Shown here one piece after another: positions 3,849 to 23,769 of a stretch of DNA of 23,769 nt. Position 1 is the stretch's first letter, and the number at the start of each line of letters is the position of its first letter. This DNA is from a virus: positions 1-23,769 of IMG/VR virus record IMGVR_UViG_3300021960_000513; one strand, given 5' to 3'. The notes beneath the pieces were generated by a model. The model made no database searches. It was not told where the DNA came from and was given only the letters and a program-made list of their open reading frames with translations. Position numbers and translations under genes: made by a program.

Positions 3849-3876
3849 AACCCACCCTTTGGTGGGTTTGGTGTTT
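3849..3876 (+). terminator. Rho-independent terminator (perfect 8-bp stem)
   Basis: AACCCACC (3849-3856), loop CTTT, then GGTGGGTT (3861-3868) form a perfect hairpin. It is followed by a T/G-rich stretch rather than a pure T run. It lies 32 bases after the stop of the secreted-protein gene and ends that unit. Confidence 0.8.
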
Positions 3877-4034
3877 AATTTATATATATTTCATTAAATA
3901 CTCTCATTATTTGAGGATGTAATATATATTCACTATTTTTTTTATTGACTTTACATAGTTATTCTTTGGATATCCCAATGTTTTGTAATATGAAAAAGTT
4001 ATAGATTGCTTAACCAAAACAAAGGAGATAATTT
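3877..4034. other. AT-rich intergenic leader of the two-helix membrane gene
   Basis: About 160 bases of very AT-rich DNA lie between a terminator and the next gene, so a promoter for 4035-4271 must be here. A TTGACT at 3945-3950 and several TATATAT runs are present. I see neither a clean host -7 element (TAnnTTTG) nor the ATATTTATA motif, so the exact promoter cannot be placed. AAAGGAG at 4021-4027 is the ribosome site. Confidence 0.4.
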
Positions 4035-4298: not shown

Positions 4299-4328
4299 AA
4301 AAACCTCTCTTCGGAGAGGTTTTTTTAT
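4299..4328 (+). terminator. Strong Rho-independent terminator with UUCG tetraloop
   Basis: AACCTCTC (4302-4309), loop TTCG (4310-4313) and GAGAGGTT (4314-4321) form a perfect hairpin, with flanking A and T runs extending the stem and a T7 tract. It is 30 bases after the stop of the membrane-protein gene and directly precedes the next late-promoter motif. Confidence 0.92.
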
Positions 4329-4330
4329 TT

Positions 4331-4358
4331 ACCATATTTATATACAACATAATATGGT
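4331..4358. promoter_or_regulatory. Candidate late promoter inside an 8-bp inverted repeat
   Basis: The core ATATTTATA is at 4334-4342. ACCATATT (4331-4338) and AATATGGT (4351-4358) are perfect inverted copies separated by 12 bases. The ATG at 4365 follows with no visible Shine-Dalgarno. The repeat could be an operator or an RNA hairpin near the start of the baseplate transcript. Confidence 0.5.
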
Positions 4359-19071: not shown

Positions 19072-19096
19072 TATTGAATAACAAGAGGAATAAATT

Positions 19097-20969: not shown

Positions 20970-20997
20970 AACCCCACTTCGGTGGGGTTTTTTGTTT
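20970..20997 (+). terminator. Strong Rho-independent terminator with UUCG tetraloop
   Basis: AACCCCAC (20970-20977), TTCG (20978-20981) and GTGGGGTT (20982-20989) form a perfect stem, with a T-rich tail TTTTTTGTTT. It ends the 19097-20951 unit and lies just before the next late-promoter motif. Confidence 0.93.
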
Positions 20998-21010: not shown

Positions 21011-21025
21011 TAGAGGAATTATCTT

Positions 21026-22387: not shown

Positions 22388-22957
22388 TTGAGTTTATTAA
22401 TCAATCATTTTAACAAGTGGGGATTTGTTCATATACCAAAAACTGGTGGAACTACAATATCAACTGTATTAAAACAAGACGTTAATACAGAATTGATAGA
22501 TTCTCATGACTCGATAAATAGATTATCTAATATAGATAATTATTATATTTTTTCATGCGTTAGAAATCCATTTACAAGATTAGCTTCTACTTATTATCAC
22601 GAATGTAGAAAAACTAAGCAAATACCTTTTTCTAAATTTTTAAAAGGTATAGATATGAACTATATATTATATCTACCCCAAAGTTATTACTTAAAAACCG
22701 GTAAGGAACTTAATAAAAATATATCGTACATTTGTAGGTACGAAAATTTTTTAAATGATTTTAAAACTGTACTTAGTAAATTAAACATATTAAGTGGAAT
22801 TCCTCACCTAAACCGTAATCCAATTTATGATAGACATCCAAATCTAAATCAAGAACAATACTATAAATTCTTGTATGAAGAGGAGTGGATGAAAGATTGG
22901 GTACGAGAGAGGTACTTAAATGATTTCAAAATTTTTAACTATGACATGGACATATAA
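22388..22957 (+). CDS. Sulfotransferase family protein (PAPS-dependent type), TTG start
   Basis: In this 189-residue protein, WGFVHIPKTGGTTISTVLK (11-29) is the 5'-phosphosulfate (PAPS) binding loop of membrane-type sulfotransferases. SCVRNPFTRLASTYYHEC (56-73) is the 3'-phosphate motif with the R-N-P-x-x-R-x-x-S pattern. His40 and Asp41 lie in between. Such enzymes move sulfate from PAPS to a sugar or tyrosine. The protein is shorter than most in the family (about 250 or more), so it may be a compact form. No ATG lies before the PAPS loop; an in-frame stop at 22367 limits the start, leaving TTG at 22388, without a clear ribosome site. Its 3' end overlaps the nuclease gene. Substrate unknown: host surface polysaccharide or lipopolysaccharide, or a virion glycan, are possible. 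Confidence 0.85.
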   Translation: MSLLINHFNKWGFVHIPKTGGTTISTVLKQDVNTELIDSHDSINRLSNIDNYYIFSCVRNPFTRLASTYYHECRKTKQIPFSKFLKGIDMNYILYLPQSYYLKTGKELNKNISYICRYENFLNDFKTVLSKLNILSGIPHLNRNPIYDRHPNLNQEQYYKFLYEEEWMKDWVRERYLNDFKIFNYDMDI

Positions 22958-23408
22958 CGGACAACCAATAACAGAATTAAAAGATATGCCAGAGGGAACT
23001 TATGGTTTTATCTACAAAATAACAAATGGAGAAACTGATGAATACTACATTGGAAAAAAACAAGTAGTATCAGTTAGAAAACGAAAATTTGGTAAAAAAG
23101 AAATTGTGGCTCTTGAAGATAAAAGAATGAAAAAGTACGAGATGGTTGAAAAAGAATCAGATTGGAAAGATTATCGTTCTTCAAACCCAACAGTAAAGTT
23201 ATGGTTTATGGAAAACCAAAGACTTCTTGAACAAAATAAAAGAGATGAAATTAACGATAAATTAGAATTAAGGATACTTAGATTCTGTTCAAATAAAAAA
23301 TCACTAACATATTACGAACTACAAGAACAATTTGCACATGATGTATTGGCAGATGAATCTTCTTTAAATGATAATCTTCTTGGAAAATTTTTTAGAAAAG
23401 ATTTGTAA
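22920..23408 (+). CDS. GIY-YIG-like nuclease domain protein
   Basis: In this 162-residue protein, GTYGFIYKITN (26-36) and EYYIGKKQ (41-48) form the two-part GIY-YIG signature. A basic stretch with Arg53 and DWKDYRSSNP (81-90) follow in the order expected for Seg-type phage nucleases. The C-terminal half is helical and charged, ending DESSLNDNLLGKFFRKDL. The metal-binding Glu cannot be placed with certainty; Glu143 in YYELQEQF is one option. T4-like phages carry many such nucleases, some acting as free-standing homing enzymes. The ATG at 22920 has AGAGAGG seven bases upstream and overlaps the sulfotransferase by 38 bases; a second ATG at 22941 has no such site. It is the last gene before the replication-side promoters. 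Confidence 0.7.
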   Translation: MISKFLTMTWTYNGQPITELKDMPEGTYGFIYKITNGETDEYYIGKKQVVSVRKRKFGKKEIVALEDKRMKKYEMVEKESDWKDYRSSNPTVKLWFMENQRLLEQNKRDEINDKLELRILRFCSNKKSLTYYELQEQFAHDVLADESSLNDNLLGKFFRKDL

Positions 23409-23433
23409 AATTAAAATATTTTTCGTATATTTG
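23402..23433 (+). promoter_or_regulatory. Host-type (Bacteroidetes) promoter P1
   Basis: TTTG (23402-23405), a 20-base spacer, then TATATTTG (23426-23433) match the Bacteroidetes consensus TTTG-N17-23-TAnnTTTG. The -33 element overlaps the end of the nuclease gene. Transcription would start about 23438, at the edge of the palindrome at 23438-23453. Confidence 0.75.
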
Positions 23434-23437
23434 TAGT

Positions 23438-23453
23438 AAAGTGTATACACTTT
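23438..23453. promoter_or_regulatory. 16-bp perfect palindrome, candidate operator
   Basis: AAAGTGTATACACTTT is fully symmetric and lies at the expected start point of promoter P1. The same half-sites AGTGTA and TACACT recur at 23495-23500 and 23507-23512, split by six bases. This suits a dimeric repressor binding the region between the two promoters. Confidence 0.55.
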
Positions 23454-23474
23454 TGTTAAATAATATGTAGTAAA

Positions 23475-23512
23475 TCGGACAAAATCCGAATAATAGTGTA
23501 TTTTATTACACT
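23475..23512. promoter_or_regulatory. Two further inverted repeats between the promoters
   Basis: TCGGA (23475-23479) and TCCGA (23485-23489) form a 5-bp hairpin. AGTGTA (23495-23500) and TACACT (23507-23512) form a spaced repeat of the operator half-sites. They would lie in the leader of the P1 transcript and upstream of P2. Confidence 0.4.
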
Positions 23513-23525
23513 TTATGATAAAATA

Positions 23526-23557
23526 TTTGGATATCTAAAATATTTTTCGTATCTTTG
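23526..23557 (+). promoter_or_regulatory. Host-type (Bacteroidetes) promoter P2
   Basis: TTTG (23526-23529), a 20-base spacer and TATCTTTG (23550-23557) have the same geometry as P1. Both share the 17-base block TAAAATATTTTTCGTAT (23412-23428 and 23536-23552). The leader to the primase ATG at 23580 would be about 18 A-rich bases without a Shine-Dalgarno. Confidence 0.8.
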
Positions 23558-23579
23558 TATAAAATTTAAAAGTAGCTAA

Positions 23580-23769
23580 ATGCTATCACATCACGAAAAA
23601 CAACAAGTTATAAACATCTTAGATGATGTATTAGGACCAGGTACATCCATGAAAGGGGATGAACAAGCACACTATTGTCCTTTCTGTCATCATCATAAAA
23701 AGAAGTTACAGATAAACCTTCAAACACAACAATGGCACTGTTGGGTTTGTGATGCGAAAGGAAAACGTA
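23580..23769 (+). CDS. 61: DNA primase N-terminal zinc ribbon (partial, runs off the window)
   Basis: The first 63 residues are present and the gene continues past the right edge. CPFC (33-36) and CWVC (54-57), with the intervening KKKLQINLQTQQWHCW, form the four-Cys zinc ribbon typical of primases: CPxC, a basic strand ending in L-x-I-N, and WHCWxC. It fits gp61-type primases of T4-like phages, which make RNA primers with the replicative helicase; a primase-helicase fusion cannot be excluded from this fragment. The ATG follows promoter P2 by about 18 bases and has no Shine-Dalgarno, as is common in Bacteroidetes. It marks the change from late structural to replication genes. Confidence 0.8.
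   Translation, partial: MLSHHEKQQVINILDDVLGPGTSMKGDEQAHYCPFCHHHKKKLQINLQTQQWHCWVCDAKGKR

Follow-up and report, generated by a model that had tools for sequence, protein, structure and literature searches.

The primase locus

Why should a viral primase gene be preceded by two promoters of the same build, with a perfect palindrome lying between them? The question is raised by the window analysed here, that is, the whole stretch of 23,769 nt of virus record IMGVR_UViG_3300021960_000513 (positions 1 to 23,769). On its plus strand, a gene for a SegE-type GIY-YIG endonuclease-like protein (22920-23408; Pfam PF19835 SegE_GIY-YIG, E 1.9e-19) is followed by promoter P1 (23402-23433), a non-coding spacer (23438-23525), promoter P2 (23526-23557) and the 5' part of a DNA primase gene (23580-23769), which is truncated by the window end and whose orthologue in the related locus L008 matches PHROG 47 DNA primase (E 9e-45). 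Directly upstream of the GIY-YIG gene, and overlapping it, is a sulfotransferase-like gene with a TTG start codon (22388-22957; PHROG Galactose-3-O-sulfotransferase, E 9e-10).

A preliminary description of this DNA had proposed that two Bacteroidota-type promoters of identical geometry stand around a palindromic operator, forming a compact, probably repressible switch for the replication genes. The sequence facts behind this proposal were confirmed. P1 reads TTTG-N20-TATATTTG (TTTG at 23402-23405, TATATTTG at 23426-23433) and P2 reads TTTG-N20-TATCTTTG (TTTG at 23526-23529, TATCTTTG at 23550-23557). Since the TAnnTTTG box lies at -12 to -5 of the starts mapped in Flavobacterium psychrophilum (PMC9723704), the predicted +1 positions are 23438 for P1 and 23562 for P2, in agreement with the preliminary description. 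Both promoters contain the 17-base block TAAAATATTTTTCGTAT, at 23412 and 23536, and no further copy with up to 3 mismatches occurs elsewhere in the window. The perfect 16-bp palindrome AAAGTGTATACACTTT covers +1 to +16 of P1 (23438-23453), and the same half-sites recur, split by six bases, as AGTGTA-TTTTAT-TACACT at 23495-23512. The spacer also holds a small inverted repeat, TCGGA-CAAAA-TCCGA (23475-23489), within its predicted fold.

A promoter class at the replication genes

Related viral loci were collected by protein scan, 43 of them with the GIY-YIG query and 80 with a 63-aa stretch of the primase. In most of these loci P1 follows the GIY-YIG tail at the same place, and in almost all of them a promoter is found upstream of the primase gene, P2 being kept directly before it. 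The relatives yielded 65 distinct 32-mers of the class, TTTGGAwAwT...TTTTCGTATMTTTGTA, with fixed spacing. The search pattern preset the TTG, the TAT[AC]TTTG box and the 32-base frame, so that only the bases left free are informative, and among these the additional conserved ones were the last base of TTTGG (G in 58/65), TTTCG before TATM and TA after it. Judged from the conservation in these 65 distinct copies, the promoter pair far exceeds what chance would give. Moreover, full-consensus copies in the large relatives follow the direction of the genes: in G006 they are distributed 9/0 between the strands, on the gene strand only, while in G025 and G019 all are on the minus strand, which is the gene strand there, the reversed-pattern control giving about zero.

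The extended form of the promoter occurs in no fewer than 120 viral stretches, whereas not one of 148 Bacteroidota genomes has it. The plain core TTTG-N19-21-TATNTTTG was enriched in two Bacteroidales genomes (46 copies against 14 in the reversed control, and 95 against 7) and was at control level in one Lachnospiraceae genome (17 against 16). On unrelated contigs, the genes lying shortly 3' of the extended form encode a DnaB-like helicase, UvdE, primase, a gp32-like SSB and DNA polymerase (family A), and include a clamp-like gene that was assigned by eye, Pfam giving no match. A PD-(D/E)XK nuclease, ClpP and GroEL-like genes also follow the extended form.

With regard to the known consensus positions of Bacteroidota promoters (PMC7366714, PMC9723704), both P1 and P2 have TTTG at about -33, TAnnTTTG at about -7 and between 19 and 21 bases separating them; they also lie just upstream of genes, in gene direction, and are selectively conserved. 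That the two are promoters is thus strongly supported by these sequence data, and their type fits the consensus of the Bacteroidota housekeeping sigma factor (TTTG / TAnnTTTG), in a tighter, extended form. Compared with sigma ABfr / SigA promoters, which share the TTTG at about -33, the TAnnTTTG at -12 to -5 and a spacing within 19-21, the class described here is stricter, with a fixed N20, TTTGG, and a -7 box that is preceded by TTTTCG, followed by TA and has A or C as its variable base. The earlier expectations of Bacteroidota-type tandem promoters upstream of the primase, heading replication genes, were in this way borne out by consensus and conservation and by the place of the class before replication genes in related phages; the promoter type would likewise fit a Bacteroidota host, the phylum that had been read directly from the DNA signals. 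P1 and P2 would accordingly both be members of one phage-wide promoter class, belonging to a group of T4-like Bacteroidota phages and heading replication and other non-structural genes.

P2 has a 55-bp match, at 91%, in the human gut crAss-like phage cr108_1, where it falls in non-coding DNA upstream of tRNA-Asn (L045 2501-2555). Shared ancestry was rejected, as cr108_1 has only one good copy, TTTGGAAATGTAAAATATTTTTTGTATATTTG, and the match is therefore ascribed to convergence on a single strong promoter, or to its exchange. As for Flavobacterium phage immuto (L046), it has a gene order in common with the window, and no copy of TTTG-N19-21-TATNTTTG was found in its 160 kb.

The departure of the extended bases from the host average means that a phage factor may take part. 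It is possible, if rather doubtful, that P1 and P2 represent a phage-specific, middle-type class in which such a factor reads the extra TTTGG or TTTTCG bases. Conservation of these bases is much higher than among Bacteroidota matches: G follows TTTG in 58/65 phage copies against 9/50, and C is found at -14 in 52/65 against 15/50, although all 50 host sites are from one MAG and part of the phage consensus was already set by the search pattern. The spacing fixed at 20, instead of 19-21, and the lack of the extended form in the 148 Bacteroidota genomes point the same way, as does the middle promoter of the T4 primase gene 61 (PMC2988021). Nevertheless, no element of the host consensus is missing (-33, -7, spacing and G at -13), so that no replaced box is needed, and T4 early promoters carry extra consensus bases yet use the host polymerase (PMC2988021). 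These T4 early promoters are host-type, with extra conserved bases, and are repeated across the non-structural part of the genome (PMC2988021), a likeness to the class described here, which is built on the Bacteroidota consensus and not on -35/-10 boxes; a further difference is the middle promoter of the T4 primase gene. The gene content of the class (replication, repair, non-structural) would fit early or middle expression.

The P1 box inside the GIY-YIG tail

The primase unit would originally have been headed by P1, the -33 box of which lies within the end of the preceding gene. The last codons of the GIY-YIG gene, GAT TTG TAA, contain this box, and its TTG doubles as the Leu codon of the protein tail ...GKFFRKDL. 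Of 58 distinct genes, 54 use TTG at this position, while TTG makes up 32 of 497 codons at nine other conserved Leu columns. In six loci (four distinct genes) the tail Leu is encoded by TTA, and five of these six loci have no P1 match. The excess of TTG at this position, together with the lack of a P1 match in most TTA loci, indicates that selection acts on the DNA and not on the protein.

Gene gain and loss between the promoters

The tandem arrangement can be understood from what related viruses carry at the same position. Among 79 primase loci, 37 have a single promoter between the GIY-YIG and primase genes, 41 were scored as double (three of them, L118-120, having no P1 match and a gap of just 80 nt) and one has no GIY-YIG gene. 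The distance between the two genes varies from about 80 to 2625 nt, and the DNA between them may hold an O-fucosyltransferase gene (L014), a gene with a weak GDSL match (L012), one of several further, unknown genes or a short non-coding stretch. On the primase tree, which is short (189 bases), supported branches imply no fewer than 5 changes between the single and the double state, and parsimony gives 10. The closest relatives of the window by primase are all double, with genes or short spacers in the slot.

Tandem promoters thus recur (41/79) because the P1-P2 slot is a site of cargo insertion, which explains the arrangement better than a repressible switch does. Lineages would insert and delete cargo genes in the DNA between P1 and P2; an incoming gene would be transcribed from P1, while the primase gene would keep a promoter of its own, P2, driving it directly. 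In three loci (L093, L116 and L124) the bases upstream of P2 repeat the GIY-YIG tail, which gives P2 the look of a P1 copy. Furthermore, the L093 spacer and the L116 cargo insert have 59 nt in common at 96.6%, at the 3' end of the latter and spanning the last codons and the P2 region, from which at least one non-coding spacer can be recognised as the relic of a gene-bearing insert. In the window, the slot is about 88 nt long and non-coding. Comparison with related loci gave weak, chance-level matches and no detectable relative, and the TCGGA hairpin had no exact match in viral contigs. An origin as an emptied slot thus rests on analogy, and by that analogy the spacer is probably the remnant of a cargo slot.

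Promoter copies flanking genes that are shuffled between related T4-like phages are also the mark of the PeSL mobile regulatory cassettes of T4-type phages (Arbiol 2010; Comeau 2014), as far as these are presented in a paper citing them (PMC4503421). On that account the likeness holds for a strong promoter adjoining a gene that varies between related T4-like phages, which is what was found here. The differences are that PeSL cassettes carry a terminator stem-loop next to the promoter, where in the present loci some spacers fold and no terminator was called at the site, and that the -33 box of P1 overlaps the end of the preceding coding sequence. Free-standing GIY-YIG endonucleases of the SegE type in T4-like phages (PF19835) offer another likeness, a GIY-YIG gene adjoining a variable site. 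Unlike these free-standing genes, the predicted GIY-YIG gene lies beside the primase gene in nearly all relatives and is therefore a fixed neighbour. The case described here would share the logic of housekeeping-sigma promoters, of T4 early promoters and, within what the citing paper conveys, of PeSL cassettes.

The palindrome and the spacer

The part of the preliminary description that did not stand is the repressible switch, since the palindrome has no counterpart in relatives that retain both promoters, a finding which that description had itself named as telling against it. No match to AAAGTGTATACACTTT with up to 1 mismatch was found in 28 relative records, nor any exact match in about 2.2 Mb of related loci (mutually overlapping), and the closest sisters having both promoters (L076, L066, L070 and L084) do not contain it. 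The element is not retained at P1 of close relatives, nor are copies of it present at other promoters of a would-be regulon. In the related loci 255 distinct promoters of the class were compared, and their perfect palindromes near +1 (+1 to +40) did not exceed 14 bp; four reached this length, all composed of A+T only.

A true operator would imply that a dimeric repressor, from phage or host, binds AAAGTGTATACACTTT and the split pair, shutting P1 and perhaps looping to P2. The perfect symmetry over 16 bp exactly at +1, and the second pair of the same half-sites, speak for such a device. A palindrome of at least 16 bp arises in 4% of Markov-simulated 178-bp regions, which makes it weak alone, while 0.08% of them show one combined with a further pair of its half-sites, a value scored after seeing the data. 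It is unlikely, then, that the repetition of half-sites is pure composition, and it is noteworthy even though the score is post hoc. On the other hand, the second pair has a different centre, owing to its 6-bp gap, and a single dimer would not bind it alike. Given also its absence from the relatives, the operator reading was rejected: the palindrome is probably not an operator on these comparisons, and we regard such a function as very improbable.

Two candidates can be put forward for its origin, a primase leader relic and an RNA hairpin. According to the former, its left half would descend from the primase leader, AGTAAAGTGTATA, and would have stayed behind on the arrival of a cargo segment and P2 in between. 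The single-promoter locus L021 carries AGTAAAGTGTATAAACT directly before the primase ATG, and AAAGTGTA-like leaders are recurrent in single-promoter loci, but the match is short and A+T rich and no intermediate was found; such an origin is conceivable, yet hardly to be expected.

As regards the RNA, the spacer would act through a stem-loop formed where the P1 transcript begins, or through a weak one ahead of P2, by which the P1 transcript would be stabilised, paused or ended, as in the promoter/stem-loop cassettes of T4-type phages. The window spacer folds better than its shuffles (z -2.45), and so do four other long spacers of differing sequence (L065, L097, L093 and L104; z -1.8 to -2.4), while the 35-nt spacers do not. 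However, the long spacers L076 and L098 fold at chance level, the stems are A+T-rich and alignable covariation is absent; a terminator scan called none in the window spacer, with a clear one at 20970, and no known structured RNA (Rfam) or tRNA matched the spacer. A role as RNA is, on balance, unlikely. The palindrome would best be seen as a lineage-specific by-product, due to chance or to a hairpin-prone leader relic, and most likely no operator. Taken as a whole, the explanation by a promoter class, a cargo slot and a by-product palindrome is given a probability of about 0.8.

The structural region and a putative late motif

In the window and three relatives, none of the class copies lies inside the structural block of 22-28 kb, and 24 are outside it or at its borders. 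The class stays out of this block, and P1 and P2 therefore mark the border between structural and replication regions. Within the structural region another motif, TATATTTATATA, is found at 4334, 19063 and 21002 of the window, 13-23 bases upstream of genes, and in G006, G025 and G019 it likewise stands before genes, nearly always oriented as they are. This putative late promoter resembles the T4 TATAAATA, to which it is not identical. A conserved helical protein without a database family is encoded at 889-1671. Its homologues gave one weak match to a PHROG late sigma factor (E 0.015) and two weak SigF matches, and several sigma factors are among the best, non-significant PDB matches of its low-confidence model (pLDDT 62), which makes it a candidate for a phage late sigma factor.

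Other signals were seen in the same block. G+C-rich hairpins followed by T runs at 4299-4324 and 20970-20989, and one with a shorter T run at 3849-3868, are likely intrinsic terminators, as judged from their form. Late-region genes have GAGG/GGAG-like stretches before the ATG (19080-19096, 21013-21025 and 4020-4034), which are missing from most leaders seen in the replication class. Bacteroidota mRNAs usually lack Shine-Dalgarno sequences.

Tentatively, and as a scheme that we would not yet expect to hold in full, this group of T4-like Bacteroidota phages may combine an extended replication class, aided by a phage factor, with a one-box late class, TATATTTATATA, read by the putative sigma factor of 889-1671, and may use promoter copies as joints for cargo.

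Biological meaning

No description of the promoters of T4-like Bacteroidota phages was found in the literature searched. The motif marks replication genes, avoids the structural block and is common to many uncultured phages, and can therefore serve to call early-type and late genes from metagenome contigs. In addition, the class offers strong candidate promoters for Bacteroidota genetics. The locus itself is a spot of repeated gain and loss of extra genes among related viruses, and provides a clear case of promoter copies bordering such a site.
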